Under the pieces are notes generated by a model that worked only from the letters and a program-made list of their open reading frames with translations, was not told the origin of the DNA and made no database searches. A stretch of DNA of 64,000 bases from an uncultured Paracoccaceae bacterium (GTDB taxonomy: Bacteria; Pseudomonadota; Alphaproteobacteria; Rhodobacterales; Rhodobacteraceae): the NCBI GenBank assembly GCA_947503925.1, contig CANNFQ010000005.1:186001-250000 (forward strand), written 5' to 3'. Position 1 is the stretch's first letter, and the number at the start of each line of letters is the position of its first letter. Of this stretch, positions 31,597 through 52,625 are shown piece after piece. The position numbers and the translations under genes were made by a program.

Positions 31597-31641
31597 TGCA
31601 AAGCATCCCCGTTTCCGTACGCAATGGCGTCGGATTTTTGA

Positions 31642-32757: not shown

Positions 32758-32849
32758 AGAACTGCGAAATCAGAGCTCGGTATGGAATGCCAACCAGAGC
32801 TCATCGACGTTCGCGGAACACAGAGCCAATGTGAAGATTGATAACCTTC

Positions 32850-33074
32850 TCAAAGTTCGAAGTCTGACGCTTGAGCGCAAATCCGATCAGACAGCAGGCA
32901 CAACCAGTTTAGTGTTTCTCTCAATTCCGCATCAGCGAGCGCCTCGTTCTGAATGAGTTCCAACACCGATCCTCGCAACTCTGGCCATGTTTCGCAGAAA
33001 TCGCTCAAGTCCCTGATACTATCGGCAGGCCTGTCGTCAGTTTCATGGTTTGGTTTTCTCAAGTTGTGCTCCAA
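32850..33074 (-). CDS. Small hypothetical cargo protein
   Basis: A 74-residue frame with a TTG start; the same frame stays open upstream to 33129 (YWAQNLTPNLNRWLEHNL), so the true start may be earlier with a non-standard codon. The C-terminal half (PELRGSVLELIQNEALADAELRETLNWLCLLSDRICAQ) has a helical, coding-like pattern. No family was recognised. The alternative plus-strand frame over the same DNA looks less protein-like. Confidence 0.35.
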   Translation of the reverse strand: MEHNLRKPNHETDDRPADSIRDLSDFCETWPELRGSVLELIQNEALADAELRETLNWLCLLSDRICAQASDFEL

Positions 33075-33215
33075 CCACCTGTTTAGATTTGGTGTAAGAT
33101 TCTGAGCCCAATATGCCTCTTGCTCGATCTATCGGTCGCGTGAAAAAAATGTGAGTGATCTATCATTCTCTGCTAATCTGCTCATTATTTGACGAGAACA
33201 AACGTTTTAGATTGT

Positions 33216-34859
33216 ATGGTTTTGACTATTAGAAAGCTTCAAATAAGGCTCTATGGCAGCTTTTCTTGCCAATGGGACACCGGGCAAATGGTGGATGTCC
33301 GTGGTGCAAAGCATCGAGCATTGATTGCTATGTTGGCAACTGCGCCAAACGGCACTCATACTCGGAGCTGGATCCAAGATGTTTTGTGGCGTCGAGCTGG
33401 CGAGGAGCACGGGCGCGCAAGCCTTCGTCGCTCTTTGTCCGACATCCGCAAAATTTTCGGGGATGATTTTGAACTTATTTTTAGAGTGACCAATGCAGAT
33501 GTACAACTTGATCCCAAGTCATTTGAACTCGTAGGAAGCCGGTCGGATGGAGAATTTGCCGAAGGTATCAACATTCCGGAGGAAGGGTTTAAGAACTGGG
33601 TGCATCAGAAACGCAAACTTCTGAACAACGATTTCCTTTTGGCGTCACAGGTTCCGCATAACCGCATTGCTCCGAAAATCGCGATCGTACCGTTTGCTAC
33701 TCGCCACAAGGCAACGGAGGAGCAACACCTTAGCGATTTGGTTGCGCAAGAGATTTCCCGTACGCTTTCTCGTTCACGACTAATAAGGGTTATTTCCCAT
33801 CTCTCCAGTAGGCGTGTCGATGGGACACTTTTGGACATCATCCAAATACGAGAAACTCTAGATGTGGACTATGTCGTTTACGGATCGGTGGGGTTGCACG
33901 ACGGCGAATATCGTATCGATGCCGAGTTGGTTCGGACATCTGATGGCCAGATTGAATGGACCCGGCAGATATCTGGGCGCGTGGCTGATCTGCTTATGAA
34001 TTCTGATGACCTGCTCGATCTGTGTTCCCAGATCGGACACGGAATTCTCTCAGCCTCAGTCGAAATGGCACATGGAAGGCCACCAGGTGAAGTGGAGAGC
34101 CATGTCTTACTTATGTCGGCGGTGTCAAACATGCACCAACACCGACTTGCGGGTTTTGCTCGAGCAAGAAGCCATTTGGAAGAACTCATTTCCCGTACAC
34201 CAGGCAATTCAGAACTGCATGCCTGGCTTGGCAAATGGTACGTTCTTTCGATAGCGCAAGGATGGAGTACTGATCCTAAAGCGGATAGTCGAAACGCAAT
34301 CGACTGCACAAAGCGCGCACTTGATAGCAATCCACATTGCCCATTGTCTCTAACCTTCGATGGTATGATCCGTTCAAGTGACCTAGCGAATTTGTCTAAG
34401 GTAGAAGTGCAATTCGACCGTGCAGTCGAGATTGATCCGAACAACTCACTTGCATGGCTTATGAACTCTCGCCTTCACATGTTTGACGGCAATGGTGAGA
34501 TGGCATTGCACTTTGCAGAAAGGGCATGCCAGCTTTCTCCCATTGATCCCTACGGCTATTTTTTCGACATTATTCGAGCCAGCGCACTGTCAATTTGCGA
34601 AGACTATGTTGGCGCACTCGATTTGGCCGAAAAGTCGATTTCTGCGAATCCGCGTCATACGTCGTCGCATCGGGTCAAAGTGATTGCTCTTGCTCTGATG
34701 GGACGGGACCACGATGCCGCAAAAGCTGCAAAGCGACTTACTCGGCTTGAACCTAACCTCACAATCCAGGGCTATCTCAGGAACCATCCGGCGGGCGATC
34801 GCCCGATGACACGCAAATGGGCAGACGCCCTCAAAGAAGCAGGTGTGCCTGCTCGATAA
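33216..34859 (+). CDS. SARP-type winged-helix regulator with TPR region
   Basis: About 547 residues from the ATG at 33216; a TTG nine codons upstream is an alternative. The first 100 residues form an OmpR/SARP-type winged helix (IRLYGSFSCQW... VRGAKHRALIAMLATAPNGTHTRSWIQDVLWRRAGEEHGRASLRRSLSDIRKIF). A TolB/adenylate-cyclase-associated-like region follows (APKIAIVPFATRH... VDYVVYGSV). The rest contains TPR repeats (AVEIDPNNSLAWLMNSRLHMF, ACQLSPIDPYGYFF, ISANPRHTSSHRV). Such proteins are large activators. It lies 25 bp before the PAP2-type gene on the same strand and probably controls that set. Confidence 0.8.
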   Translation: MVLTIRKLQIRLYGSFSCQWDTGQMVDVRGAKHRALIAMLATAPNGTHTRSWIQDVLWRRAGEEHGRASLRRSLSDIRKIFGDDFELIFRVTNADVQLDPKSFELVGSRSDGEFAEGINIPEEGFKNWVHQKRKLLNNDFLLASQVPHNRIAPKIAIVPFATRHKATEEQHLSDLVAQEISRTLSRSRLIRVISHLSSRRVDGTLLDIIQIRETLDVDYVVYGSVGLHDGEYRIDAELVRTSDGQIEWTRQISGRVADLLMNSDDLLDLCSQIGHGILSASVEMAHGRPPGEVESHVLLMSAVSNMHQHRLAGFARARSHLEELISRTPGNSELHAWLGKWYVLSIAQGWSTDPKADSRNAIDCTKRALDSNPHCPLSLTFDGMIRSSDLANLSKVEVQFDRAVEIDPNNSLAWLMNSRLHMFDGNGEMALHFAERACQLSPIDPYGYFFDIIRASALSICEDYVGALDLAEKSISANPRHTSSHRVKVIALALMGRDHDAAKAAKRLTRLEPNLTIQGYLRNHPAGDRPMTRKWADALKEAGVPAR

Positions 34860-34884: not shown

Positions 34885-36123
34885 ATGTCAAGCCAAGCTA
34901 CCGGAACCGCGATGACTGCAATGACCGCGATGACTGCAATGACTGCAATGACGGCGATGAGTGGTTCAACCGCTATGACAGCCATGACGGCGATGTCTGG
35001 CAACGCTGCTGCTGCAGGCAACTATGATGGCACAACGGCTGCGGGCCTTTTGCTGGCAAGGGATGGAATTGTCGGCCAGTGGAGCGGAGCAACACTAAAC
35101 CCCCGCGAGCGCGATCTCAACAATCCAGAGAACCTAGAAGATTGGTCTCAGATGGTTCGCACCATGGTGGTGTTACAAGATTTGCTGACAAACAGCGGAG
35201 TTGCTTCAAGCCCTTCAGGTTGCACACCGGAAGTTTCGTTCTATCACTTCAACCGTCCATGCGACGCAACGGCGATGCTCGATACATTCGATATCACGGC
35301 CCAAAGACTGGCTGGGTTTACAAGACCTAGGAACGGAGAGTTCGTTGCTCAGCTCGAATTGGTGCGAGACTATGCAGATCTTCGAGCGGACCGACTGCCT
35401 GAAATCCTGTCACAGGCAGGGTATCCGGTTCCTTATATGACAGCCATTGCTGATCTGCACCCTGGCCGTAAAGAGTTCACCCATGAACTATTAGGAATAA
35501 CGCAAGTTTTTGCCACGCATGTTGTTCTTTCCGTAAAACAGGCTCTGGCTTGTCACCGACCTGACGCATTCTCTCCGCAGGTACAGCCCGTAATACCAAC
35601 TCCTGGTCACGGAGCTTTACCCAGCGGACACGCGACAGAAGCTTTTGCAATGGCCGTTGTCCTGTCCCGGCTGATAGAAGCCGAACGTGGAGACACTGGA
35701 CGCGGCGCGGAAGTAACTAAGCTATATGTCGACCAATTGATGCGCCAAGCCGCTCGAATTTCCATCAACCGGACAGTCGCCGGTGTTCATTTCCCAGCGG
35801 ACTCAATGGCAGGAGCGATGCTTGGGCTGCTTATCGGGCAGTATTTGATTGCGCGGGCAACCGGTCATGGATGCCTCTACCCAGTGGGATTCGATGGGAC
35901 GAAAGTGGCGACCTCACCCGCAAGTGGAGCGGGCAACTTGGTACCAATAGACTTTAGGACCGAGACTTACCTTTCGGCCAACGCTGATCCTTTAGTCGCC
36001 CCCCCTGCACACGATGGGATCGTAACTGAGCTGGGAGACCCCATACCGGCTTCACCTGGATTGATAAGCGCTCCACTTAAATTCTTGTGGGACAAGTCCC
36101 TACTCGAATGGAAGAAGCGGTAA
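34885..36123 (+). CDS. PAP2/vanadium-haloperoxidase-fold enzyme with a Met-Thr-Ala repeat N-terminus
   Basis: A 412-residue protein. The phosphatase/haloperoxidase triad of motifs is complete: K-Q-A-L-A-C-H-R-P, then LPSGH, then NRTVAGVHFPAD (R-x5-H-x3-D). Members dephosphorylate lipids or sugars, or use vanadate to oxidise halide. Residues 9-40 are almost only Met, Thr, Ala, Ser and Gly in repeats of M-T-A, with no hydrophobic signal peptide. The gene ends 12 bp before a subtilisin-like protease gene, so the two are probably an operon. The repeat tail could be a protease-cleaved leader or an assembly segment (inference). Confidence 0.8.
   Translation: MSSQATGTAMTAMTAMTAMTAMTAMSGSTAMTAMTAMSGNAAAAGNYDGTTAAGLLLARDGIVGQWSGATLNPRERDLNNPENLEDWSQMVRTMVVLQDLLTNSGVASSPSGCTPEVSFYHFNRPCDATAMLDTFDITAQRLAGFTRPRNGEFVAQLELVRDYADLRADRLPEILSQAGYPVPYMTAIADLHPGRKEFTHELLGITQVFATHVVLSVKQALACHRPDAFSPQVQPVIPTPGHGALPSGHATEAFAMAVVLSRLIEAERGDTGRGAEVTKLYVDQLMRQAARISINRTVAGVHFPADSMAGAMLGLLIGQYLIARATGHGCLYPVGFDGTKVATSPASGAGNLVPIDFRTETYLSANADPLVAPPAHDGIVTELGDPIPASPGLISAPLKFLWDKSLLEWKKR
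34912..34995 (+). repeat. In-frame Met-Thr-Ala codon repeat
   Basis: About ten tandem nine-base units of the form ATG-ACN-GCN, interrupted once by a Ser-Gly-Ser-Thr spacer, encode the M-T-A run at the N-terminus of the PAP2-type protein. Third positions vary (ACT, ACC, ACG; GCA, GCG, GCC), so the peptide rather than the DNA appears to be conserved. It could still expand or contract by slippage. Confidence 0.8.
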
Positions 36124-39472: not shown

Positions 39473-40570
39473 TTAGGCAAATCTCTCCACGACCTCTCGA
39501 ACTGCAGCTTGATGGACTATTGAATCATCCGCTGATCGAACTCCAATGTTGACTTCAAACAAATAGTCTTTTCCCCAAAGCCCAAGGATGTGCTCAATTT
39601 CTCCGTCAGCAAACACTTCAATCCCAGTAGACTTTTCCAACTGAAGGAGACCAAGGAGAATTTCTTCTCTGGCCGCAATGGAAAACGGGCCGGGGCGCTG
39701 AACACCATTTCTCCGAACAGGCCACCTGCGTGCTTCATCGTTCCGCACTTCCGCAAGCCAATTCCTAAATTCAAGAAATGGCTCCAGCTGTGCATGACCA
39801 GCGTCGACCAGCTTTATTGCGGAATGGTCCTTCCGAACAACCGTGCAAGTCCAGCAACCAAAGCGACCGCTACCACATGGTGGTGAATTCGGTGATTTTA
39901 TTACGGGGCATTCACCCGACGCATCCCTGTAAAGCCGCTCAATTTCAGACGCATCTATGGATACAGGGACTCCAAGAAGGAAAATTGTGTCCCAAACATC
40001 GGATATATTAAGATCCAATATTGGAAGGAAAATCGAAGCTGATGATCCTCCTTGTTTTTGCCAGTAATCGTCCCCATTTTTTTTGATTGAACGTTTACGT
40101 TGTTGGCTTTCATCACGCCGACTTCCCAAAACAACTACAGCATCTTCTGCGCCGAATGTTTTTATGAACCTCACAACCGGATTTATTCTCAGGGCTTTGG
40201 TGCACCATCGAAAGTGGTTAGTCGGGGTGGGGTATCCGCGCCCAGCAACCTTGGCAAAAAACCGGTCTTCCAACGGTGCTCGAAGAATATCGATAGAAAC
40301 ATCCATACCCAAAGCTGTTGTTTCGTGGTCAATTTTTAGAAGGGTTCGTTTGACATATTCATCAATGACCGGATTTTCGACGCCAGTGTCGCAATAAATC
40401 AAAGATACAGCTCTCGGTTTCTTGTGTACCTTTTTCAAGGCGGCGAGAAATATTTTTAGGGTCGCAGTTGAATCTTTGCCTCCGGAATAGGCAATAATCC
40501 AGTGTTTTTGGGAATTCGCTTCGATGGCCCGCTTGGTACGTTCGATAGCTGGCAATATTTGGTCAGTCAT
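39473..40570 (-). CDS. DndC-like PAPS-reductase-family protein
   Basis: A 365-residue protein. The ATP-pyrophosphatase P-loop is AYSGGKDSTATL (residues 29-40). HFRWCTKALRI lies in the middle, and the DndC-type iron-sulfur region CPV...PPCGSGRFGCWTCTVV near 240-260 is intact. DndC activates sulfur for DNA phosphorothioation in Dnd systems; this version is shorter than DndC and has no dndB, D or E neighbours. The start overlaps the end of a small membrane-protein gene by 8 bp. The pair may be a separate defence module (inference). Confidence 0.8.
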   Translation of the reverse strand: MTDQILPAIERTKRAIEANSQKHWIIAYSGGKDSTATLKIFLAALKKVHKKPRAVSLIYCDTGVENPVIDEYVKRTLLKIDHETTALGMDVSIDILRAPLEDRFFAKVAGRGYPTPTNHFRWCTKALRINPVVRFIKTFGAEDAVVVLGSRRDESQQRKRSIKKNGDDYWQKQGGSSASIFLPILDLNISDVWDTIFLLGVPVSIDASEIERLYRDASGECPVIKSPNSPPCGSGRFGCWTCTVVRKDHSAIKLVDAGHAQLEPFLEFRNWLAEVRNDEARRWPVRRNGVQRPGPFSIAAREEILLGLLQLEKSTGIEVFADGEIEHILGLWGKDYLFEVNIGVRSADDSIVHQAAVREVVERFA

Positions 40571-41288
40571 TTTTGAAGTACGCTTTCACTTTGTCAGAGT
40601 GAAACTTCCGAATTGTGTCGATTTGGCCATCACTGATCTCCTTGTGGAATGCTGTGAGTTTCCAAGAAATAGGCCACGTTGCTGCAGCGCTGAGAGAAAA
40701 TACGACCACTCCAATCAAAGCTCCTTGAGAAGAGAAGATGAAGTGATGCAATATCGAATAAACAGAAAACAATATTGAGATTGCTTTTAAATCGGCGGTC
40801 GATGTCCATAAAAGACCATTGAAATAGGCCCGCTTGGACTGAATCTTAAGGCTCTCATCAGAATCTACAATTCTGTAAAATAGCATTTTGATATTTGACC
40901 ACTCGGACTTTTGTTGATCAGTATGATCTCCAGCAATATCTGCTATTCCGTGCATAATGTTTAACTTCACATCAGCATGATTTCTTCGGTTGGCCCAATC
41001 CCGCAGAGGAGTGACGTAATAGATCACTCCTGCAATGATGGCTGGCAGCGTTTTGGCCAAGTCAGACAGTGATTTAGGGGCATCAAACTTCCAATCCCCC
41101 GTCCATTTGCCAAGCAAACTCCAAAAGAAGACGATAATGATGCCGGGGACGAGCAGGCGTAAATACTTCAACGTTTCGAGGGACAATGAAAAAAACCTTA
41201 TGAAACCAAGGGCACACCTCAAAAAGATGGGCGTTCCCGCCTTCGACGATACGCCCAAGGGTTGAAGTTGACCATAGGTGAAATTCAT
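40563..41288 (-). CDS. Membrane protein coupled to the DndC-like gene
   Basis: A 241-residue protein with four hydrophobic segments in two pairs (LLVPGIIIVFFWSLLG and LPAIIAGVIYYV; AISILFSVYSILHHFIF and LIGVVVFSLSAAATWPI). A cytoplasmic helical loop lies between them and the tail is basic. No family was recognised. The 8-bp overlap with the DndC-like gene implies they work together. Two-pair membrane topology is common in effectors that act on the membrane, but nothing shows this here. Confidence 0.65.
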   Translation of the reverse strand: MNFTYGQLQPLGVSSKAGTPIFLRCALGFIRFFSLSLETLKYLRLLVPGIIIVFFWSLLGKWTGDWKFDAPKSLSDLAKTLPAIIAGVIYYVTPLRDWANRRNHADVKLNIMHGIADIAGDHTDQQKSEWSNIKMLFYRIVDSDESLKIQSKRAYFNGLLWTSTADLKAISILFSVYSILHHFIFSSQGALIGVVVFSLSAAATWPISWKLTAFHKEISDGQIDTIRKFHSDKVKAYFKND

Positions 41289-41427: not shown

Positions 41428-41799
41428 CTAAGCTCCGGTATCCGAGTTCTTCCTTGGGCGACCATTCATACACCATTTGACCCGCCCATTCTGAAGAAAA
41501 AAATGGCAACCGCATGCGTTTTTCTGATGAACTGAAGGATTCAGGGTAGGTCGGAGCCAGTAGTCAATTGACACCCCCCACCTTGGCCGCCGAGCTGGAT
41601 TCAACGACAACGAAATCTGTTTGCCGCATCCTCCAGGGCAACGCATACAAGCCCATTTCGACACTTCACCTTTGCAAACAACAACCAAGTCTCCTTTACT
41701 GATGCTCCCATTATTCGGGAATGCTTCTCGTTGAACCACGATAAAATCCGTGTTCAGCAACCTCAGCCACCGCAGCATTTTGATCAATTTGGCATGCAT
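41428..41799 (-). CDS. DUF6527-like zinc-binding protein of the ubiquitin-like operon
   Basis: A 123-residue protein with Cys clusters MRCPGGCGKQISLSL and SVHQKNACGCHFFLQNGRVKW. This is the pattern I associate with DUF6527 proteins that sit beside bacterial E1/E2/JAB genes. The SLSLNP...W...LNPSV linker fits that family. It starts 5 bp after the JAB-E1 gene. Role unknown; a metal-binding accessory or adaptor in the conjugation pathway is the likeliest reading. About 140 bp of non-coding DNA separates it from the downstream membrane-protein gene. Confidence 0.7.
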   Translation of the reverse strand: MHAKLIKMLRWLRLLNTDFIVVQREAFPNNGSISKGDLVVVCKGEVSKWACMRCPGGCGKQISLSLNPARRPRWGVSIDYWLRPTLNPSVHQKNACGCHFFLQNGRVKWCMNGRPRKNSDTGA

Positions 41800-41803
41800 G
41801 ACT

Positions 41804-43210
41804 TTAACCCACTAGCCCTAAAAAAGGCTCTGCGTCGGCGCGCCCCAGCACATCGGTCTGGCCACACACCGGACAATCTGGATTGAGCGAAGGGATGGGA
41901 AACCTATCGTCTTGTGCATGGAACCTGCGGACCCGATGTGGCGTCATACCATGAGAGCCTTGAAACGAAGTAAGTGAGGCAACAAGCTCGTTTACTGCCA
42001 TACAGGCCACTTCAGTGGTAAAGGTCACAACTGCTGGTGAAGGATCACCGCCGCCTAAGACGTACGCCTCTTCTTTCAGTTTGTGAAAGCTGACAGAGTC
42101 ATCTCGCTCAAGCGCTTCATCTGCCGCTTTTTGAGGATCCATCACCCCATGACACATTAAGCACTGATACCCTTCAACGAAGGTTGTTACGCGACCAAAC
42201 ACATCGACGTGGCCGTCCTCATGGCGTTTCATGCGTAGCCCCAAATCGATCAAAGGAATGCCGTAATAATGAGCCAAACGATTCAAGAAAATTCGGCCTG
42301 AGTGATCATCCGTCGCACCAAATACAGCGTCGCAAGACTTCAATGCATCACGAGAACCTTGTGAACCGGCCCATGATTGCATGGTGACTACCTTTGGCCC
42401 CAAGTCAGTTTCAGTCGCCATACGAGCAATATTTTCGACTTTGCTGAGCTTTTCTTTCACGTCGCTAAGGCGTGCACCGTGAACACGATTGAGATTGGTC
42501 AACTCTAGCACATCTTTGTCCATGACTAAGATGTGCCCGACGCCCAACCGGATCAAAAGCGCTGCAACAGCACTACCCGTTGCACCTGCTCCGACCACGC
42601 CTATGCGAAGTTGACCAACCGCATCGTTGAAAGAAGATCCGAACAAGCGTGCCTGACGATCAAGTACACTGTTATCAGCAGTATCACCTGAAAGGTCCTT
42701 CAAAAACTGAACTTTTGATCCAATCGAGGTTACGCGCTCGATGTCACGACATCCGCCATCAGGTGACCATAAACGTACAGCAATACTACGGTCCCCATTG
42801 ATGACGATGCTGAGAAGGCCTTTGACCCCTTTAACAAACGCCGTTCGTGCAAGGTCCTTCTCGTTTTTGTTATCCTGACTTGAAAACCGGGCAACGCCAC
42901 GCGGATGGGTATGCACCAATGCTGGAATGAGGCCTTCTGACTTGGCCTTAGACAGAAGCCGCATAAATCCACTCGTCGACCAAGTCACATGACTCGCTGA
43001 TGAACTGATTTTCTCTGTTTCAGTGATTGGGACAAACTTGTGGGACACAACACGCAAACGAGGTGTCCCAAACCAAGGATCGGCCGTAATTTCTGAACTC
43101 CCAAATAACATATACGCAGAGGCTTCAGACCCGTCAGACGTGTCCAATAGCCTTTCGATCAGTTCAAAATGTGCAGAATGTAGAACTGCATCCAGTTCAA
43201 GTTTATGCAT
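41804..43210 (-). CDS. JAB peptidase fused to E1-like (ThiF) activating enzyme
   Basis: A 468-residue fusion. The N-terminal JAB/JAMM metalloprotease has H100-T-H102-P...S110-S-Q-D113 with a candidate Glu40. The E1-like domain follows with the nucleotide loop GAGATG (207-212), VMDKDVLELTNLNR, and a zinc pair CLMC (350-353) with CPVC (446-449). E1 enzymes adenylate the C-terminus of ubiquitin-like proteins; JAB removes or matures them. It overlaps the preceding Ubl-E2 gene by 8 bp from the ATG at 43210. Having activation and removal in one chain fits bacterial ubiquitin-like operons. The E1 catalytic cysteine could not be fixed with certainty. Confidence 0.88.
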   Translation of the reverse strand: MHKLELDAVLHSAHFELIERLLDTSDGSEASAYMLFGSSEITADPWFGTPRLRVVSHKFVPITETEKISSSASHVTWSTSGFMRLLSKAKSEGLIPALVHTHPRGVARFSSQDNKNEKDLARTAFVKGVKGLLSIVINGDRSIAVRLWSPDGGCRDIERVTSIGSKVQFLKDLSGDTADNSVLDRQARLFGSSFNDAVGQLRIGVVGAGATGSAVAALLIRLGVGHILVMDKDVLELTNLNRVHGARLSDVKEKLSKVENIARMATETDLGPKVVTMQSWAGSQGSRDALKSCDAVFGATDDHSGRIFLNRLAHYYGIPLIDLGLRMKRHEDGHVDVFGRVTTFVEGYQCLMCHGVMDPQKAADEALERDDSVSFHKLKEEAYVLGGGDPSPAVVTFTTEVACMAVNELVASLTSFQGSHGMTPHRVRRFHAQDDRFPIPSLNPDCPVCGQTDVLGRADAEPFLGLVG

Positions 43211-44132
43211 GGCCCTTCTCCAATGCACACCGAGCGCGCGTCACCATTGTATGCAATCCATCAACCCCCGGACGCCAGGCAGTGCTATGACGCGACCAGC
43301 GTTGCCATGTGCGATTGCCAAAGACATGAGGTACATTTGCACACCGTGCCTCTGCGCCTGTCTTCTTTAACTTGAGCCATGGATCGACAAAAAACATATC
43401 TGGACGGGCGTCCGGATAACCGCGTGGCAATAGGATCAGCAAGTCGGCGGTATCGCTGTCATAGGCATTTTCTGGAAGTGGAAAATCCTTGATGATAACG
43501 CCAGCTTGTCCAACATGAGTTTGAAATTCATGCGAAAACCCCTCAGTTTCTAGATATTTGCGATCCTTAGATGGGAGGGGCTCAAGCCCCTCCGTCGTTT
43601 CCGCCATCACGGTGATGAAACGCTCGACGCCGCGTTCACCCAAGTTGATAACAGCACAGTCTTCGATCAATTCGTCGTGGCCCTTGCCTCCAGGCACCTC
43701 CATGTAAAGATCATATCCGGCAGGCAGAGATGCCAATTTTTTAAGAACGAAGCCGCTGATGAGCGACTTACCCCATTCCAAGTCACGATGATCGATTTTG
43801 AATTTGAAGCTACGATCAGTCATGAAGTAGATGACCTTTTCTGCACCACGCCCGCGCAAATCGAATGGCTCATCGAGGCTGATGTCTTCAAAATCGCCAT
43901 TGCCCAAGACGGCGACCAAGCCATGCTCTTCTACAGGATGTGCCCCAACGGCCTCCAGAATTTGACGGCCCAGTGGAATAGGATCATCAAGCTTGATCTT
44001 CGTGGTTTTCAAAGTTTCGTTTGCGACGTCAACACGGTACTTGCGTGCCTTATGCAAAGGACGATGACCGCGTACAGCGTCACCGATATCGTCGAACTCC
44101 ATGATTGGAGAATTGTTGTATTCGTCTGTCAT
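43203..44132 (-). CDS. Two ubiquitin-like domains fused to an E2-like domain
   Basis: A 309-residue protein. Residues about 31-103 (KYRVDVANETLKTTKIKLDDPIPLGRQILEAVG...) and 108-176 (RSFKFKIDHRDLEWGKSLISGFVLKKLA...) look like two multiubiquitin-type beta-grasp domains. Residues about 190-305 match the prokaryotic E2 family-E pattern (LLILLPRGYPDARPDMFFVDPWL, then WQRWSRHSTAWRPGVDGLHTMVTRAR). No Gly-Gly ends either Ubl and no classic HPN-Cys motif is seen; Cys264 is the only cysteine near the usual site. It is 86 bp after the helicase gene and overlaps the JAB-E1 gene. Confidence 0.82.
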   Translation of the reverse strand: MTDEYNNSPIMEFDDIGDAVRGHRPLHKARKYRVDVANETLKTTKIKLDDPIPLGRQILEAVGAHPVEEHGLVAVLGNGDFEDISLDEPFDLRGRGAEKVIYFMTDRSFKFKIDHRDLEWGKSLISGFVLKKLASLPAGYDLYMEVPGGKGHDELIEDCAVINLGERGVERFITVMAETTEGLEPLPSKDRKYLETEGFSHEFQTHVGQAGVIIKDFPLPENAYDSDTADLLILLPRGYPDARPDMFFVDPWLKLKKTGAEARCANVPHVFGNRTWQRWSRHSTAWRPGVDGLHTMVTRARCALEKGHA

Positions 44133-44217
44133 TTGAATGACCCTCTATGTTATGCACGAACTGCCTGTCCCTGCTTGCAATGGGTCAATCGACTCGAATT
44201 TTGAGAGTCGGTAAAAA

Positions 44218-47200
44218 TTAATTAAGATTTTTCTTACGCACCGTACCGGCAGGTAATTTACCGCAAACAAAGTAGTTTGAGCAGTTAGGGCAACGATCAC
44301 TTGGTTTGGCTTCAAACCGGCCTTGATGAAAGGCCGCACCTAAATCACTCAATTTTGTGATCCTATTTCTAGCTACCGTTGAACTGAGTGTGACTGGGTA
44401 TAGGTCATGGCTTGTTAGGAACAACATTTCAGCACCAGACACAGTTGCATCACCCTGTGAAGCCAAGAACAGCATACAAATTTCAAGGTTGTCGAGAGGT
44501 TTGCGCTGCATCCGGCCCGTTCTAACCCGTCTCAGGGTCTTGGACAGTGTTCCAATAACATGGGCTTCGTCAGGGCGCAGAACGACGTAGCAATCGCCGA
44601 AGTGATATTCCAATTCTGGTGGATCAACACTTTGCAAACCTGCATGTTTGGCAACAAGAAACTGACTCAGATCAAGAGCAATCAACTTGTAGTCGTCGCA
44701 GTACGGGTTCTCTGTCGGGCCCTCTTCAAGCCATGCCTGTTCAAAATGGTCTGCTACATCATCCCAAGCAATGGCAGTCCCATGCATGGTTTTGACCATA
44801 TTAACAAACTTTTGGACGGCGTTATGCATGAGCATAAATGGTGTTTCCCGACGCCGCCCACCCAGTTTCATGACATGGGTATAAAAGACCTTCCTCGGGC
44901 AAGCTGTATATTGATCAGGAATCGCGGGATACATTTCCAATGGTGCATCAAAATTTACACTAATTGGGTTAGTGTTTCTCGATTGGCGTGCAGTTGTGCC
45001 ATCGACAAGGGGTCTTTCAATCGTGTTGCCAAGCAGGGACAGGAACGGAGAAGAAGGCCGGTTTCGTCCTGAAGCATTGCCTTTCGCGATTGTTTCAGTC
45101 GCCGCATAAAGATAGAGTTGGTCTTCAGCGCGAGACATGGCGACAAAAAACAAACATTCTTGTTCTTCTTCATGTCCTGCTCGCAAGGCATCGATACCCG
45201 GGCCGGTAACTCCCTCGATCATACCATCTGGTGGATCTAGCGGCTTGGTAAACCCGCTAAAGCCGATTGGGATCGAGTCCTTTGTCAGGCTCGGTACATG
45301 GACAACAGGGAACTCTAACCCTTTGCTGCCATGCATCGTCATCAGGCGTACCGCATCTACTTCCTGCGCCGCATCAGGCAACTGCCGCAAATCGCGGTCA
45401 TCGGCTAACAAAGCGATGCGTCGAACATGATTCATCAATCGCTGGATGGGATATCCATCCCCATCCCTGGGATAGGTTCGCAAAAAGTTCATGAATTGCC
45501 AAATGGCTATTGTTGCATTCCTACTAGAAGCAGCGGTTCCTTTGGCCAGATCAGCAAGGTGACGCGTGTCATCTAGAAGAACCTTGGTTAGAAGGTCCCA
45601 AGGATCTGTCGCAGGCACCATATCTCTGAAAACCGCTTGAAGTCGTTCAAAGCCGGCGCGGCCGGCAGAGGAAAGCGCTAGATTGGTCGTATCAAACTCA
45701 GACCACATACCTAAACGATCAACTTTTGCTTCCCGCATCGCCAAAATGATTGCCTCCACATCATTGAGTTCCATCTCGAACGATTTCATGCAGGCAACTT
45801 TGACCAAACCCATGGGTCGGGCCTCGACCGCAAGCGAGAGCAGCGACACTAATTCTCGTATTTCATCACGTTCAAACAATGGCCCCAAGAAGAGGACAGG
45901 AATCCCGCGTTCCTCCAGGCCAGCGGCGAGAGCCGCCAACCGCTCGTTTCCTTTGCACAGAACTGCTTGGTCTTGGAACGACACACCAGTTTGATGAACA
46001 GCTTGGATAGAGTTCGCCAACACTTCTATCTCGTCATCCTTACTACGTGCACGGATGAACTGAGGTTTTGCTCCAAGAGCGCCTCGTGCTGCATCGACTT
46101 TGAATGATGCCGGAGCGTTGCGCATCCCAGAGCGCGCAAAGATCTCGAAAGTCTTGCAGATCTCATCGCTTGATCGATAGTTTGTCGTGAGCTCTGCACG
46201 TGCGCCGTTGGGGAAATCTTCCGCATCAAATCGTACCAAATTATACGATGACGCACCTCGAAATCTGTAGATCGATTGTTTCGCATCGCCCACAACCCAC
46301 AGGTTATCTCCGCTCCCTACGACCGCTTTCAGCAACCGGACACTAGCCCGGTTTACATCCTGATATTCATCGACCAAGACGTGGTCATATTCAGATTGTA
46401 TCAAGCCGCGTACGATTGGATCGCTTTCAAACAGCCCTACCGGTAGTGCCACCAGATCCCCAAAATCTAGCTTGTTTCGCTGTTTTTTTAGACTCTCGTA
46501 GACTTCGTAAACCTTTGCTACTTCTTCGCAAATAAGTGCGGACTTTTTACGAACTTCGTCCGACGGGTCGATCTCATCCGCCATCGCAGTTGCTAAGTCA
46601 GCGTACTTTTGAGCATCAACAACCTCGTCCTTTGCACGTGAAATAGCTGATAAAATGGAACGTAGCTTGTCTGTTGGATCCCAAAGGTCGCGAAAATGGG
46701 TCAAGTCTAGATGCGCATACTCAATTTCGAGCAGCTCGATCGCTTCTGTTTGATCCATCATCCCAGGGTTATCCGGCAATCCGAACTTATTATAAAACCG
46801 CCGAATCAGGTCCAAGCCAAACGAATGAAACGTGCCCACCCACATCTTGCCTGCGGCCTCAGGCCAAGCTGAGGTGATGCGTTCCAACATCTCTCCGGCA
46901 GCCTTATTGGAATACGTCAAAACGAGCAGTCGTTCGGGGTCAGCGCCTTCGTCACGCAATGAGGCGATGCGGCCAACCAACGTCTGTGTTTTTCCAGTCC
47001 CCGGACCTGCTTCAAGTAGGAAGGGAGAACCGCGATGTTCCGCAGCCCTCTTTTGAAAGGCATTGAGAGGCTTTGGCGTTGATATTTTCGGTACAAACGG
47101 GGGGCGTTCTGGAAGTAGAATAGCATCCATGATTTGCATCGCTACTACTTCAAATGGAATGCCAAGCTCATCCGAAATATCAGACGCCGACTTAAGATCG

Positions 47201-47664
47201 TTGAGGTGCAACTTCCTGGCAGACGACCTCGGAAAAAGCAACTCGCGTGCAAACAGATCCATTTGGACTTCGCGCCGTTGCCTGCGTCCGTAGTCAACAA
47301 CACGTTCTACACCAACAGACGCTACCTCTGCTGGGCGCAAAGGGTCCGGTTCAACTTCTGTGTCAGTGTGAACTTGGCCTCCAAATTCCATGTGGCCAAC
47401 TTCATGTGCTACATGGAATGCATCTCGGAAGATGTCACCTGTATCAGCGTAAACAAGCACATCGAGATCTGCGTCAAAGTACGCGTGACATCCCTTTAGA
47501 GGATCACTGCCCGGCCTAGCTTTCTGAACCTCAACATCGTGATTTCCGCAAATGTCGACAGCAGCAAGCGCGATGCCCATCAAGTCAGATGGATCAACGC
47601 TAGTAGCAATGATCTTTCTATGTAGCTCGTCGGCGCGCTGCCTGCCCCGCTCAATCGGGTCCAT
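44218..47664 (-). CDS. ImmA/IrrE-type metallopeptidase fused to UvrD-family helicase
   Basis: About 1,148 residues from MDPIERGRQRADEL. The N-terminal peptidase has HEVGH (87-91) and a third ligand in FARELLFP (Glu141), as in ImmA/IrrE enzymes that cleave repressors. The helicase has Walker A GPGTGKT (220-226), VDEYQD, a Q-x-x-Y-R-F-R-G segment and MTMHGSKGLEF. The C-terminus resembles an AddB/Cas4-like nuclease, with CPRK and CPNCSNYFVC cysteines for an iron-sulfur cluster, but the catalytic Asp/Glu/Lys pattern looks degenerate. The start overlaps the upstream gene; ATG at 47682 is an alternative. Confidence 0.88.
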   Translation of the reverse strand: MDPIERGRQRADELHRKIIATSVDPSDLMGIALAAVDICGNHDVEVQKARPGSDPLKGCHAYFDADLDVLVYADTGDIFRDAFHVAHEVGHMEFGGQVHTDTEVEPDPLRPAEVASVGVERVVDYGRRQRREVQMDLFARELLFPRSSARKLHLNDLKSASDISDELGIPFEVVAMQIMDAILLPERPPFVPKISTPKPLNAFQKRAAEHRGSPFLLEAGPGTGKTQTLVGRIASLRDEGADPERLLVLTYSNKAAGEMLERITSAWPEAAGKMWVGTFHSFGLDLIRRFYNKFGLPDNPGMMDQTEAIELLEIEYAHLDLTHFRDLWDPTDKLRSILSAISRAKDEVVDAQKYADLATAMADEIDPSDEVRKKSALICEEVAKVYEVYESLKKQRNKLDFGDLVALPVGLFESDPIVRGLIQSEYDHVLVDEYQDVNRASVRLLKAVVGSGDNLWVVGDAKQSIYRFRGASSYNLVRFDAEDFPNGARAELTTNYRSSDEICKTFEIFARSGMRNAPASFKVDAARGALGAKPQFIRARSKDDEIEVLANSIQAVHQTGVSFQDQAVLCKGNERLAALAAGLEERGIPVLFLGPLFERDEIRELVSLLSLAVEARPMGLVKVACMKSFEMELNDVEAIILAMREAKVDRLGMWSEFDTTNLALSSAGRAGFERLQAVFRDMVPATDPWDLLTKVLLDDTRHLADLAKGTAASSRNATIAIWQFMNFLRTYPRDGDGYPIQRLMNHVRRIALLADDRDLRQLPDAAQEVDAVRLMTMHGSKGLEFPVVHVPSLTKDSIPIGFSGFTKPLDPPDGMIEGVTGPGIDALRAGHEEEQECLFFVAMSRAEDQLYLYAATETIAKGNASGRNRPSSPFLSLLGNTIERPLVDGTTARQSRNTNPISVNFDAPLEMYPAIPDQYTACPRKVFYTHVMKLGGRRRETPFMLMHNAVQKFVNMVKTMHGTAIAWDDVADHFEQAWLEEGPTENPYCDDYKLIALDLSQFLVAKHAGLQSVDPPELEYHFGDCYVVLRPDEAHVIGTLSKTLRRVRTGRMQRKPLDNLEICMLFLASQGDATVSGAEMLFLTSHDLYPVTLSSTVARNRITKLSDLGAAFHQGRFEAKPSDRCPNCSNYFVCGKLPAGTVRKKNLN

Positions 47665-48202
47665 TGTCGTAACCGCCGTCATAGAGCCGCGCCATCTGGA
47701 CCTCATCAAGGTCCAAACTCGCGACAAAATCCGTAAATGATGTCTTCTCCATTTCCCCGGGCTTACCCGCAGCCTTCATAGAAAGACCAGTTGGGATTCT
47801 CGTTGGCATGCACAGATATGCCAAGAGTTGTGCTTTGCCGATTGAAGCAGCAGAGGCGGTTCGCCGGACAAGCGACTGAGGAAGCGTTTCTGGTGCAAAA
47901 TTCCTATCTCTAAATGCAGCGATTACGGCGCGTGGGAAACCCAACTTTCTTGCAATTTCTTTGGCATTCTCACCGCTTAAAGCGTCCCTAACCTGTGATG
48001 TGTCTGCTAGGTTTGCTTCAACGTCTAGATCTGTATCAGACAACGGAGATGCAAGTAGCTCGAGCTCAAGCGACAGCCTAACGAGGTCCGAGGCGAACTG
48101 AGGGTATTGCGCAAGGTAGGCATCAAGCGTTGCTTTGGATTGATCTTCCTCAATGGAGAAAGAACGCAGGACATCCTCTTTTGAAAGTGTCTCTGACATC
48201 AT
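47651..48202 (-). CDS. Partner protein between sigma factor and peptidase-helicase
   Basis: A 183-residue protein; its ATG overlaps the sigma-factor stop (TAATG) and has GGAGGAG before it. It contains a helix-turn-helix-like segment (GENAKEIARKLGFPRAVIAAFRDR) and a region LPQSLVRRTASAASIGKAQLLAYLCMP...KAAGKPGEMEKTSFTDFVASL. I associate this combination with small regulators next to ImmA/IrrE peptidases, so it may be the repressor or anti-sigma cleaved by the peptidase. That is inference. Confidence 0.65.
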   Translation of the reverse strand: MMSETLSKEDVLRSFSIEEDQSKATLDAYLAQYPQFASDLVRLSLELELLASPLSDTDLDVEANLADTSQVRDALSGENAKEIARKLGFPRAVIAAFRDRNFAPETLPQSLVRRTASAASIGKAQLLAYLCMPTRIPTGLSMKAAGKPGEMEKTSFTDFVASLDLDEVQMARLYDGGYDNGPD

Positions 48203-48999
48203 TACTCCTCCCTTAACATATTTTTGATTTTGGAACGCGCCGATTTGAGGCGGTTTTGAACAGTCTTTGGTGTGCATCCCAGGATTGATGAAATTGACAT
48301 GACGGATGGATCATTCGACTCAATTGGGTATTGCTTCATCATGTACAGCATAACCTCCCTTTCTTTCTCTGGGAGTTGGCCAATCGCGCGTAATGACTCT
48401 TTCAGGTAAATTTTTTCTTCGTTTTCAACAAATGCATCTTCAGCCAACTTTGTGAGAGCAACTTTGACCTCGGCCGTCAGACGCTCTTCTTCGTCACCAG
48501 TGGTCATCGAAACACACTTTGAAGCAGGACCCATGACCGAACGCCATGCATCTATCCGGTCAAACTTTATGGCCTGATCAAAACTGACCTCGTAGTAATC
48601 TAAATCTTCATCATAGTTAGCTTGATCGTTAGCAATCAGAGCTCCAAGATTATCCAAGACCATGTCTTCCATTTGAAGCTGATTAGAGTCTTCAGTGCCA
48701 TCTCGGCCGGGTATGTACCAAGGAAAGGATCTTTGGATGCGGTTCCACAAGACCAAGAAGAGCTTGTCAAACAGAGCGCGATTGTTGTGAGTTTTGGCTT
48801 CCCTCATCATGAAGACGAGGACTTCAGACACAACATAGTCGGGCGAAGATCTGTCATTGATCTCCGCGCGTTCCAAAAGATTAGCATAGCCGTGGGCTTT
48901 TGCACGTTGGATTTGCTTGACGGTGCGCGCACGTCGGGTCTGAACGTGACCTGAAAGGGTTTTCTTACGGAGCGGCGGCAACTCGTCGTACTCAGTCAT
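48202..48999 (-). CDS. Sigma-70 family RNA polymerase sigma factor
   Basis: A 265-residue sigma factor from the ATG at 48999 (MTEYDELPPL). Region 4 is clear at the C-terminus (LKESLRAIGQLPEKEREVMLYMMKQYP... SVMSISSILGCTPKTVQNRLKSARSKIKNML). Region 2 is divergent and lies in the middle. Longer upstream starts read into the transposon end and are unlikely. It heads a chain of overlapping or closely spaced genes that includes the peptidase-helicase and the ubiquitin-like genes, so it may direct their expression. Confidence 0.85.
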   Translation of the reverse strand: MTEYDELPPLRKKTLSGHVQTRRARTVKQIQRAKAHGYANLLERAEINDRSSPDYVVSEVLVFMMREAKTHNNRALFDKLFLVLWNRIQRSFPWYIPGRDGTEDSNQLQMEDMVLDNLGALIANDQANYDEDLDYYEVSFDQAIKFDRIDAWRSVMGPASKCVSMTTGDEEERLTAEVKVALTKLAEDAFVENEEKIYLKESLRAIGQLPEKEREVMLYMMKQYPIESNDPSVMSISSILGCTPKTVQNRLKSARSKIKNMLREE

Positions 49000-49285
49000 T
49001 ACTAGATCTTCAATACCTTTAGTTGAATGAGTCCACTGTGATGCAATCTGTTGCCGATCTCCATGGCATATTTCAAAAATGGAAAAATCTGCAGTTACAT
49101 TGTTTCGAATGCAGGTCTGCTTACATCCAACATTAGCAGCCATACTGGATCTGCAGCGAAGGTCCGGAAACCGCCCGACGTGTCAAATCTAATGACACAA
49201 ACTCACATGCTTCAGGACACTTCTTGAAAACCGGCAATTGGAGAGCCCAAGCAGATTGATGGGGAGAAAAACCGTCTCAACTGCC
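49000..49285. other. Upstream region of the sigma-factor operon, next to the right transposon end
   Basis: About 285 bp without a convincing gene. It must hold the promoter of the minus-strand sigma-factor operon and grades into the right-end repeats. A longer in-frame extension of the sigma gene through here has no domain-like sequence. Confidence 0.4.
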
Positions 49286-49357
49286 AAAAGTCGCGGTCTT
49301 ACCCGACATAAGTTGCGTTTCTCGCCGAACAAGTTGCGATTCACGCCGGACGGCACA
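49286..49357. repeat. Right transposon end with three direct repeats
   Basis: Three related 20-base units lie at 49286-49305, 49308-49327 and 49329-49348, with 21-22-base spacing and a core AAGTTGCG...TC...CGCCG. The end follows 9 bases later with GGCACA. Tandem, close-packed repeats at the right end and spread repeats at the left end mirror the asymmetry of Tn7 TnsB sites. Confidence 0.8.
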
Positions 49358-49362
49358 CGAGA
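49358..49362. repeat. Right copy of the 5-bp target-site duplication (CGAGA)
   Basis: Directly follows the terminal ACA of the transposon and matches 25711-25715. Confidence 0.93.
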
Positions 49363-49670
49363 TTTTAGCAGCCAAAGCCGCAAAGGATTCCAAGCTACGC
49401 ACGGCTCTCCAAAAAGAGCTACGAGAATATTTGAAACGCATGGAAGAAATGAAAGCTATGGAAGCTCGTGAGCTAGCGAAAGGCCGTTTCCCGTACACAA
49501 TCTTCATGTACGAAGCTGAGCATGTGGGCATATCTGCCACCGGTGACGAAGATACGAATGAGCTAGGCCCCCATACGGTATTGCCTGACGGTGTCGAGCG
49601 TTCTTGCTTGGACTGGTACCAACTGTACCAGAACGATCCGGCTGCGTTGTCACAGGAGCATTTGCAGTGA
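49363..49670 (+). pseudogene. Nuclease-methyltransferase restriction fusion, 3' part
   Basis: This is the C-terminal 103 residues of the interrupted gene: a basic coiled segment (ILAAKAAKDSKLRTALQKELREYLKRMEEM) and the HsdM-type end FPYTIFMYEAEHVGISATGDEDTNELGPHTVLP. Joined at the duplication to codon 631 at 25714, it gives one uninterrupted frame of 733 codons. It ends with a GTGA overlap with hsdS. Alone it has no start for the restriction protein, so the enzyme is inactivated unless the element excises. Confidence 0.88.
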
Positions 49671-50998
49671 CAACCCACGCCAACCAAGCAAAAACGCCTC
49701 TGATCGTACCGTTTGTAAAAGCTCAAACGTGGAACGTTGCGGCCCAGTTTGCCGTGCAGTGGCAATGGGATGACAAAGACATCAAAGAACTAGGTTCAGC
49801 TCTAACCCAGCGAACAGAAGCCGCCGCTGATACCCTGCCGCTGGAAACCGAAGTGACTCTTCTAACCATTCGTTTTGATGGATCAATCGAGCCGCGCCAA
49901 CCGCTGCGCATTTGCGACGTGAAAGGAAAGCTGTTTCGGGTGCATCCCGGCGATGTGGTGTTCTCTAAAATTGACGTGCGCAATGGAGCTATCGGAATCG
50001 CGCCGCGCGACATAACTAACATGTGCGTAACGTCTGAATTCCCCGTTTACACAGTGCAAGAAAGCTACGCCAATTCAGACTATGTGAAGTTGCTATTTAG
50101 AACACAAGCTTTCATGCGCCTCTTGAACTCAATGATAAGCGGTGCGTCGGGCCGGAAGCGAATACAGCCATCGCAACTTGAGCAAGCAAAGGTGCCGCTT
50201 CCCAACCTAGGAGTTCAGCAAACAATCGCCCATGAGTGGAAGTGTGCTGAGCAGGTTGTTTCCAGATACCTCAATGACTTCGAAGGGCTGACACTCGAAG
50301 TAGATAACGGACTGCGAAGTAGGACTTCGCATTTCGATGAAACCTGTAAGTCGAAGTTCTTTGTGTCGTCGTATGATTTGACACGGCAATGGGACATGAA
50401 AGCTGGGCGAGCGGCCCACTTCACCGGCTCGAACCCAACCTTCGTGCGTTTGGGGGAGCACACCGAAGAGTGTTCTGAAACCGTTCGCCCGTGGGATGAT
50501 CCCAACAAAGATTGGCCAATCTACGGCGTCAACAACAAGGACGGCGTGTTTCTAAACAGCTATCAGAAGGGAAAGGACTTCAACGCGCCATACAAACGCA
50601 TCAAGAAAGACTGGTTCTTCCACAACCCAACACGCGCGAATGTCGGCTCGCTTGGCAAGGTTCCCACCGTGCCTAAGGACGCAATCACAAGCCCTGAATA
50701 TCAGGTTTGGCGACTTACTGGCGGCTTTCTCCCCGAATTCATGGCACTCCTAGTCCGCACTGACTACTTCCTGTCGCTCGTAGATTTTAATCGCGTGGGC
50801 GGGGTCAAGCAGCGCATGTACTACAGCAATCTTGCCGACATTCGGTTGCCTATGATCCCAATACAAGAACAGCAAGCTATAGCGGATAAGTACGCTGCAC
50901 TTCTTAACGATATTGAAAATGCACGCGCAAACCTTGCACACACAAAAGTAGATATCGAGCAAATGATTTTGGGCACTATGAAGATTGAAGGGAACTGA
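49667..50998 (+). CDS. hsdS: Specificity subunit HsdS
   Basis: A 443-residue protein with GTG start at 49667, overlapping the methyltransferase stop. Two target-recognition halves are separated by helical repeats. The first half ends with SGASGRKRIQPSQLEQAKVPLPNLGVQQTIAHEW, the second with NRVGGVKQRMYYSNLADIRLPMIPIQEQQAIADKYAAL, which are classic HsdS conserved regions. It would direct the nuclease-methyltransferase to a bipartite site. The gene itself is intact; its partner is not. Confidence 0.9.
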   Translation: MTTHANQAKTPLIVPFVKAQTWNVAAQFAVQWQWDDKDIKELGSALTQRTEAAADTLPLETEVTLLTIRFDGSIEPRQPLRICDVKGKLFRVHPGDVVFSKIDVRNGAIGIAPRDITNMCVTSEFPVYTVQESYANSDYVKLLFRTQAFMRLLNSMISGASGRKRIQPSQLEQAKVPLPNLGVQQTIAHEWKCAEQVVSRYLNDFEGLTLEVDNGLRSRTSHFDETCKSKFFVSSYDLTRQWDMKAGRAAHFTGSNPTFVRLGEHTEECSETVRPWDDPNKDWPIYGVNNKDGVFLNSYQKGKDFNAPYKRIKKDWFFHNPTRANVGSLGKVPTVPKDAITSPEYQVWRLTGGFLPEFMALLVRTDYFLSLVDFNRVGGVKQRMYYSNLADIRLPMIPIQEQQAIADKYAALLNDIENARANLAHTKVDIEQMILGTMKIEGN

Positions 50999-51000
50999 CG

Positions 51001-52625
51001 TTGTCGCGGGGTAAACAATTTGTCGAGTTTGAAGGGCTTTTCGCCGAGGGCGTTCTAGGAATTTTCCGCATCATTCGAGGCTACGCCGACCTACGCGACC
51101 TTGCCGCAGTTTCGGTTCCTTACAAAATGGAAGCAGGCCCAGCGGGCGCAGGCGTCGTAGGCCATCAACGGCCTGAATCAGAGAAGCACGCCGAAGACAT
51201 CAAAAAGTATCTGGAACAAAGCGAAAGCCGGTTCCTGCCGGAAGTCATTTTGTCTGTTCGTTCGCCGGTCAAGCTTACGACAGAGCGCGGCGATATTGAT
51301 CCTGATGAACTGGGGTTGGGAGAAATCGTGTTTGGGGCCACAAGCGACGGCGACAGCCCTGTACAAATCAACCGACGGCATTCGAACAGAACAAGCCGCA
51401 TCCAGCGCATTCGCGTCCCTCGTAACCAGCTTGAGGCTATTCGGAACGACAAGCTTGTTCGTAGGATCGACGGCAACCACAGGCTCCATTTGGCCGAAGA
51501 ACTCACAGACGATCCCAACGCGCCGACGAAGTATCTTGCCCCGTTCTGCATGATCCTACTTGGTGAAGCCGCGAATGATTCGGACGATTTCGCTGAAAGC
51601 TTGATCTTCCACACGATCAACAGCACAGCGCTACCCTTGGAGTCTGAACACGGCCTTCAACTATTGCTTGGGCAAAATCCAGCACACGCGATTCTTCCAG
51701 ACAACGAGTTTGCTTACAGCCCGGAATTGCATCTGACCCGTTTGTTAGCAACCCACCTTGACGGACTGCCAGCCCCCACACGGGCAAAATTCGGTGAACG
51801 TCCGTTGACGGCACTGTGGGAATCTTCCCGAAACTTGATAGCGATGGATCCGGCAATTGCGCAGGACAGAGCAACCCTTACCGACTTCGCGGCAACACTT
51901 TTTGCGGGGCTTTCGGAAATCTCGGTGCAGCTTACCGTGAACCACCCATCGCTTTGCCGTACTTATGGCTTCTTCGAACTTGCGGCGCGAGTTTGGCAGG
52001 AAACGGCAGGAGAGACGCACGAAGACAAAGTTCAAGGTTCGGTCGCTGTACTTGATCGACTTGGGCAGTGGCTAGGCGGTCAAGGTATCACCAACTTGTT
52101 GAACCGACTTTCTCCTGCGGAACAATTGCTTGAAACCTTTAAGGCGGCGCAAAACCGGATTCCTAAGCGGGTGTTTCTAGCCCGGTGGTACCCCCACAAG
52201 ATGCGGCCAATGGGGCGCATAACAAGGCAACTCTTCGGCTCGAACAGCTTCACCAAACATTGGCGAATATCCTTGCTACCCACGGCATTGCCTTGGAACT
52301 CATTGACATGGGGACGGAAGAGGGCGGCACCTTTCCAATTCACACTAAGATGTACGAAGCAATCGCGTCGGCAGACATCATCATTTGTGATCTAACAGGA
52401 CAGAGACCGAACGTATTCATCGAAGCAGGTTTCGCGCTCAAACACCATGAGCAAGACAAGCTCATTTTCTTGTTCGAACCGAATGGAGAAGCAGACAAAG
52501 TTCCTTTCGACCTAAACACATTCAAGTATGTTCAGATCACGCAAGCCGCAGAAATTCCAAATCGGATCGGCACTGAGATCGAAGCCATCTTGCGGAACTC
52601 GGGGGCAACGTTGGCCAATTACTGA
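51001..52625 (+). pseudogene. DGNHR-motif protein with TIR-like C-terminus, broken by a frameshift
   Basis: The TTG at 51001 starts 3 bp after hsdS. The N-terminal part has VRRIDGNHRLHLAEEL, as in DGQHR/ParB-like domains. After ARWYP at about 52190 the frame must shift by one base, at a run of five C (52191-52195), to continue into PQDAANGAHNKATLRLEQL. The second part is a TIR-like/deoxyribosyltransferase-type domain (MYEAIASADIIICDLTGQRPNVFIEAGFAL). Unshifted, the first part ends in unrelated sequence at 52395. One extra C would give a protein of about 541 residues. It may be a real mutation, a sequencing slip, or programmed shifting. Confidence 0.75.

Follow-up and report, generated by a model that had tools for sequence, protein, structure and literature searches.

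How is a ubiquitin-like modifier (Ubl) released and passed on when it is made as one chain with an E2-like domain and carries no Gly-Gly end, and when its partner domain has no classic HPN-Cys E2 motif? The question is raised by three genes in a 64,000-nucleotide (nt) stretch of DNA from an uncultured Paracoccaceae bacterium (GenBank contig CANNFQ010000005.1, positions 186,001 to 250,000; the window in what follows), which a first-pass annotation of the sequence alone had described as a ubiquitin-like conjugation operon carried as transposon cargo. Judged by their domains, the three genes are a Bub-type operon, also known as type 6e, an architecture already described. A short motif at the junction of the Ubl and E2 parts is the likely answer to the release puzzle, and the operon turned out to be the downstream part of a longer unit. 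We read this unit, with a rough probability of 0.6, as a mobile six-gene cassette for regulated ubiquitin-like conjugation, in which a precursor-type Bub core is combined with a switch built on a protease-helicase fusion (M78-UvrD).

The ubiquitin-like operon and its junction motif

The operon and the two sites within its first gene lie as follows.

43203..44132, minus strand: Ubl-Ubl-E2 fusion, 309 aa (Pfam and matches to solved Ubl and BubB proteins)
43587..43598, minus strand: TTEG motif, residues 179-182, at the junction of the second Ubl (Ubl2) and E2, predicted JAB cleavage site (alignment of fused and split forms)
43287..43298, minus strand: invariant WSRH, residues 279-282 of the E2-like domain (29 of 29 E2 domains)
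41804..43228, minus strand: JAB-E1 (ThiF) fusion, 474 aa (Pfam, match to BubCD, key residues)
41428..41799, minus strand: DUF6527 protein, 123 aa, probably metal-binding (Pfam and alignment of 12 members)

The genes are arranged as the first-pass annotation had it, with intact open reading frames (ORFs), the first two overlapping by 26 bp and the DUF6527 gene following 4 bp further on. Pfam assigns two Multi_ubiq stretches (E = 6.7e-24) and Prok-E2_E (E = 6.1e-41) to the fusion protein, Prok-JAB (E = 5.5e-7) followed by ThiF (E = 3.6e-34) to its neighbor, and DUF6527 (E = 3.6e-24) to the third, as had been proposed, all above curated cut-offs. The JAB motif noted earlier is present as H106-x-H108-P...S116-x-x-D119, and all nucleotide-site residues of the E1 domain are kept (G213xGxTG218, D237/D239, R248, K263 and D307). 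The DUF6527 protein retains CPxxC, a further Cys and a His across 12 aligned members and probably binds metal; presumably, it corresponds to the "protein Y" of a 2006 survey or to BubE. The suspected link to Bub was correct: the E2 part of the fusion matches Citrobacter BubB (E = 7e-11), residues 23-423 of the 474-residue JAB-E1 protein match Citrobacter BubCD (E = 1.3e-28), and for the Ubl part there are matches to four solved structures of multi-Ubl proteins (best E = 2.1e-27).

Operon type 6e, as listed by Iyer, Burroughs and Aravind in 2006 (PMC1779556, Table 1), combines a polyUbl, an inactive E2/RWD-like domain, a JAB domain fused to E1 and a metal-binding protein, an account that the available part of a later review repeats (PMC11354881). 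The survey also notes that some species carry polyUbl and E2-like domain as one fused protein, as the window does. The fusion is thus unusual only in part, as it was already on record and since, among the 394 genomes of a draw from the family, the 16 with an above-cut-off Prok-E2_E match comprised seven with frames of at least 307 aa (fused) and nine with frames of 149-167 aa. In the corresponding class draw, four of 385 genomes matched, three of them above the cut-off. Fused forms recur in Rhodobacterales, rhizobia, Methylomagnum and one cyanobacterium, and the fused protein matched 172 plasmid records, 31 of them over at least 80% of its length; ten plasmid loci were examined among the 60 of these 172 matches that were listed. 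The solved Citrobacter system (PDB 9ea4, 9ea5, 9eae, 9eav) shares with the window a multi-Ubl protein, a Prok-E2_E domain with WSRH and the JAB-E1 fusion, whereas in the window Ubl and E2 form one protein with a TTEG junction.

This junction bears directly on release. Gly-Gly and HPN-Cys are indeed absent from the Ubl-Ubl-E2 protein; what had been overlooked is T179-T-E-G182 between Ubl2 and the E2-like domain. In all 14 two-Ubl fusions examined, [ST]T[EA]G closes Ubl2 ahead of E2 and is followed by residues that vary in sequence and length. Split multi-Ubl proteins end at or close to the same motif (terminal or 2-8 residues before the end in eight of eight examined, five of which are close relatives), and the one encoded on Synechocystis plasmid pSYSX has TTEG as its very C-terminus. 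The JAB protease of the partner gene would be the obvious cutter. Since it would cut after the TTEG glycine, the natural reading of the alignment is that the fusion is a precursor yielding modifier and E2 together, and junction and JAB domain between them likely answer the release puzzle. Five longer fusions (L004, L017, L018, L060 and L078), whose length and alignment suggest three Ubls, form a separate count; L015, L016, L019 and L020, short loci with unrecognised Ubl genes, entered the E2 count only, and L005, with a Prok-E2_E match below the cut-off, was excluded from the counts.

The E2-like domain is conserved around residues other than Cys. Across 29 aligned domains, L194, Y239, P240, D245, M246, P251, W279-S-R-H282 and W286 are invariant. 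The E2-like domain of the window has a Cys, C264, the position aligned with it in Citrobacter BubB is not Cys, and a classic thioester E2 is unlikely because no alignment column holds Cys in more than 15 of the 29 rows. Ye et al. are reported to describe a diverged, non-thioester mechanism for Bub, with oxyester intermediates. BilABCD follows the same logic of double Ubl, E1, E2 and JAB, with BilA processed by JAB (PMC11354881, available part). Unlike the window family, BilB has a catalytic Cys (CEHH motif), and the gene layout of the two systems differs.

Three upstream genes and the distribution of the cassette

The three genes first reported are real, but three co-directional upstream genes of the same unit had been overlooked.

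48202..48999, minus strand: sig, sigma-70 region-4-like DNA-binding protein (weak Pfam match, FliA profile match, alignment)
47651..48202, minus strand: p208, about 184 aa, fold unassigned, weak Xre-like helix-turn-helix (HTH) signal (alignment)
44218..47727, minus strand: M78 (ImmA/IrrE) metallopeptidase-UvrD helicase-degenerate PD-(D/E)XK protein, 1169 aa (Pfam and alignment)
41454..49160, unstranded: six-gene cassette (blastn, 85.3% identical to Epibacterium ulvae locus L002)

Pfam matches the M78-UvrD protein, whose gene is listed from a TTG and more likely starts at the ATG at 47682, to Peptidase_M78 (E = 2e-8), UvrD (E = 1.9e-63) and, under the cut-off, PDDEXK_1 (E = 9e-4). HExxH is intact in all 18 aligned proteins, as are the UvrD motor motifs; in the C-terminal PD-(D/E)XK remnant, inspection found the Cys ligands retained and the catalytic residues seemingly gone, and a PDB search with this part at E 0.1 returned no relative. 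The open frame of sig extends to 49143, with homologues beginning near the ATG at 48999. Of 12 family members, 11 show Sigma70_r4_2 (E up to 0.1), mostly weakly; the window protein scores 23.1 bits, below the cut-off of 25.7. Sig further gave a profile match to FliA (E = 1.2e-4) and, under its cut-off, a superfamily match to sigma70-ECF (E = 2.6e-7), with region 2 giving a weak hint only (E = 0.082). The p208 gene overlaps both neighbors, and its open frame of 208 aa reaches 48277. Ubl-E2, DUF6527, p208 and sig are without a matching PADLOC model at E 0.1.

The six genes sig, p208, M78-UvrD, Ubl-E2, JAB-E1 and DUF6527, overlapping or close on one strand, make up the only DNA stretch that blastn finds in common between the window and the 16.9-kb E. 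ulvae locus. Plasmids of Roseovarius, Sinorhizobium (with the helicase gene split over two frames) and Agrobacterium carry the six genes in this order as well. In a second arrangement (subtype B), found in Acinetobacter, Cereibacter, Leptolyngbya, Agrobacterium pusense and Mesorhizobium, the trio of sig, p208 and M78-UvrD precedes a multi-Ubl gene that lacks Prok-E2_E, a ThiF gene that lacks JAB, and DUF6527. Pfam recognised three Multi_ubiq stretches in the Acinetobacter proteins and a DUF6791 domain ahead of ThiF; the other assignments were made by alignment, except for the Mesorhizobium E1, which was assigned from profile and length alone. Robbsia has the trio in divergent orientation to a longer Ubl-E2 operon. 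The subtype B loci are L057 (9538-11910), L058, L061-L063, L074, L076 and L077. Their ThiF gene after the multi-Ubl gene lacks JAB (DUF6791-ThiF in L057), and seven of the eight multi-Ubl C-termini printed read FNVT(R/K)T..S, L079 being the exception and L058 having been seen in a separate alignment.

Genome scans with p208 alone identified three of 394 genomes in the family draw, three of 385 in the class draw and six of 374 in the phylum draw, nine distinct genomes in all; the draws overlap (G000 in all three, G568 in two), and their sizes are not additive. The trio was in order in all nine, window included, and eight had a multi-Ubl and an E1 gene directly downstream, seven of these with DUF6527. 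The p208 search profile took 11 of its 12 rows from Ubl-linked loci, a possible search bias. Among plasmids, p208 matched 55 records, 45 of them from Acinetobacter, and seven helicase loci were chosen for diversity among the 40 listed of 93 matches. In the ninth genome (G481, locus L073), where the helicase gene occupies two frames, the genes next to the trio encode a 169-aa protein, a DUF7665 protein, a third protein with a JAMM motif read by eye and a fourth with a weak ThiF match (E = 0.032). A Bradyrhizobium japonicum locus from the plasmid search (L059) carries DUF7665 (E = 3e-14), a weak Prok-JAB match (E = 0.033) and a 487-aa protein without a Pfam match. The small first proteins of the two loci are distantly alike (E = 2e-4) and matched no Pfam family, the L073 protein also no PDB entry; we read them as Ubl-like, and the set is perhaps a third, undescribed Ubl-conjugation architecture. 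In both loci (L073:7342-10174 and L059:9543-12477), the trio precedes DUF7665, JAB/ThiF-like genes and a small protein whose C-terminus lies at or near NG.

At six other Bub loci, M78-UvrD is replaced by a separate, shorter ImmA/IrrE gene close by. Upstream of the Bub genes in L025, L027 and L029 lie a divergent sigma-like or hypothetical protein, a protein of about 140 aa and a short M78 protease, a layout similar to the window trio. Profiles of the window trio did not detect the divergent regulators of the other Bub loci, these three included. In viral contigs, a method detecting close relatives only found no relative of Ubl-E2 or p208, and phages gave no match to Ubl-E2 at E 1e-3.

Proposed mechanism and its alternatives

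In the pathway that we propose, Ubl and E2 would be made as a Ubl-Ubl-E2 precursor, from which JAB would release, by a cut after TTEG, a double-Ubl with a C-terminal glycine and the E2 in a 1:1 ratio. The E1 domain would adenylate this glycine, and the E2-like domain, with WSRH at its core in place of a conserved Cys, would help to transfer the Ubl to a target, from which JAB may also be able to remove it. A possible role of DUF6527 is to bind metal and assist in target choice. Upstream, M78-UvrD would engage damaged or invading DNA through its helicase, and the protease thus activated would cleave p208 (or sig), so that the sigma-like protein is set free and the entire operon is expressed more strongly. 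By analogy with PprI and CapP, the trio may be a DNA-damage switch. PprI is an M78 protease that is activated by single-stranded DNA and cleaves DdrO, with CapP-CapH described likewise (PMC10904395, available part). CapH+CapP and PprI-DdrO resemble the trio in pairing an M78 protease with HExxH and a DNA-binding protein, and CapH+CapP likewise sits beside a putative immune operon, whereas the window M78 is fused to UvrD, and sig and p208 replace a clear XRE repressor. Bub operons adjoin CapW or CapH+CapP in 219 of 544 cases and CapK+CapS in 59 of 544, all DNA-damage responsive, and many adjoin regulators that sense single-stranded DNA (PMC13373217, available part). We prefer a DNA-triggered protease switch with p208 or sig as substrate because of the PprI and CapP proteases and of these DNA-damage-responsive regulators beside Bub operons. 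In the window, CapW, CapH+CapP and CapK+CapS, a frequent but non-defining Bub feature, are not adjacent; by Pfam, the trio in their place is different. Promoter and terminator scans yielded no more than shuffled sequences.

More tentatively, and at somewhat less than even odds, we suggest that sig-p208-M78-UvrD is a dedicated, undescribed DNA-sensing module, a protease-fused helicase switching Ubl tagging on, and that two or more types of Ubl operon, probably three, have taken it up in proteobacteria and cyanobacteria. If a helicase-protease fusion does command Ubl tagging, the trigger would be the state of DNA, a question open to a single deletion and a single reporter; the TTEG junction likewise makes it easy to assay cleavage of a precursor uniting modifier and conjugating enzyme in one chain. 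As far as our search went, the six-gene cassette with its protease-helicase trio is undescribed: no description of the trio beside Ubl operons came up among the papers listed from a mostly open-access literature, and two key Bub papers outside it may describe it. The available text of the 2006 survey, while covering the downstream genes, does not mention sigma-like, p208 or M78-UvrD genes (PMC1779556), and in the available main text of the Bub study the word "helicase" does not occur, its mention of uvrD concerning host repair genes (PMC13373217).

Several observations weigh against the proposed pathway and switch. The five longer fusions have no [ST]T[EA]G and show an NGE-type junction sequence instead, which argues against a universal TTEG rule, and the 14 fused and eight split rows include close relatives (the window and L002; L011 and L012; the five split proteins), so that the independent events are fewer than these counts. 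Subtype B operons adjoin the trio and have neither JAB nor Prok-E2_E, from which it follows that JAB processing is not required by the trio. Only three of 18 genomes with above-cut-off Prok-E2_E carry p208, which makes the trio one of several partners of Bub cores. An Xre-like HTH was detected in one of 12 p208 members (E = 0.0034), a weak signal, and profile comparison did not support p208 as a relative of CapH, the match to CapH-like proteins reaching 2% probability. Finally, Bub is not known to protect against phage (PMC13373217).

A rather unlikely alternative makes M78-UvrD a working partner or effector, either the main conjugation target or activated by Ubl attachment, that acts on invading DNA. 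A 1169-aa motor with conserved helicase motifs is large for a regulator, it accompanies at least two and perhaps three Ubl-operon architectures, and the separate, shorter ImmA/IrrE genes of the six other Bub loci fit the same idea. It is, however, encoded beside a sigma-like protein, the M78 domain is known for cleaving repressors, and with the nuclease catalytic residues seemingly lost, no obvious DNA-destroying activity is left. Nor do we think it likely, given that WSRH, YP..DM and another Trp are the same in all 29 domains, more than a passive binder would lead one to expect, that the E2-like domain is the inactive, RWD-like Ubl binder that Iyer et al. took it for (PMC1779556, available part), with E1 handing the Ubl straight to targets, although the lack of a conserved Cys, shared by BubB at the C264-aligned position, is what that interpretation would predict.

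Two further readings appear less probable still. The Ubl-Ubl-E2 protein might never be cut, the tethered E2 acting in cis on its own Ubl or presenting it to E1. Fused forms do recur across many lineages, but conservation of the TTEG-type motif does not extend to the residues that follow it, and split versions stop at or close to the motif, which leaves an uncut fusion improbable. That the trio is an unrelated neighbor co-travelling in defence islands we regard as very improbable. Fourteen of the 16 family-draw genomes with Prok-E2_E lack p208, and the largely Ubl-linked origin of its profile may have biased the search in favor of an association; against this, a Ubl/E1 or JAB/ThiF-like operon adjoins the trio in all nine p208 genomes, and the six genes of the cassette and nothing else are shared at the DNA level with the E. 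ulvae locus.

Mobility of the cassette and other features of the island

The window's island extends from near 20.1-20.8 kb to 53.73 kb, at a tRNA-Ser gene (53751-53840), as judged against three genomes of the same genus; no empty site was seen in these because the two flanks were either some 200 kb distant from each other or on separate contigs. Besides the cassette, it contains a set of Tn7-like genes.

25898-27886, minus strand: TniQ (Pfam)
27724-28731, minus strand: TnsC/TniB (Pfam)
28619-30799, minus strand: TnsB (Pfam)
30796-31683, minus strand: TnsA (Pfam)

Transposon carriage is well supported for the E. ulvae copy. There, the cassette lies in an element of about 20.3 kb with TnsA/B/C-TniQ genes (TniQ by tblastn only) and terminal inverted repeats matching at 28 of 29 nt, one of which begins 27 bp past a ribonucleotide reductase gene, its partner following about 20.3 kb on; the cassette starts just inside one repeat, and the 9-bp sequence GTAGTTGTG, read by eye, occurs 2-4 nt outside both. 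The E. ulvae Tns and TniQ relatives, located between the repeats, are 24-29% identical to those of the window; related cassettes are thus found alongside two divergent Tn7-like machineries. For the window itself, the earlier claim of transposon cargo holds as far as the tns genes share the island, while the element ends were not found: no inverted pair (22 nt, at most three mismatches) was detected between 20000-34000 and 46000-53800 or between 20000-24000 and 25500-34000, and long inverted pairs were taken, without a test, as chance. A tandem pair, AAGTTGCGNTTCNCGCCG, at 49310-49348 resembles an end-type repeat and aligns weakly to the E. ulvae end. In genome G1124 (contig C20:493220-493297, in L083), an 88% identical second copy of the left end of the E. 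ulvae element is present about 4 kb past its right end and may mark a second related element.

Elsewhere in the window, a gene with HSDR_N and N6-methylase domains (23822-26224) and an HsdS-like Methylase_S gene (49604-50998) are separated by about 23 kb containing the tns genes and cargo; they are possibly one restriction locus split by insertion. Just downstream of the cassette (39473-41288) are a DndC-like PAPS-reductase gene and a 241-aa protein without a Pfam match, a pair not found in the E. ulvae locus. Nine-base tandem repeats (34906-34995), located where a PAP2-phosphatase gene starts, encode a repeated MTA motif.

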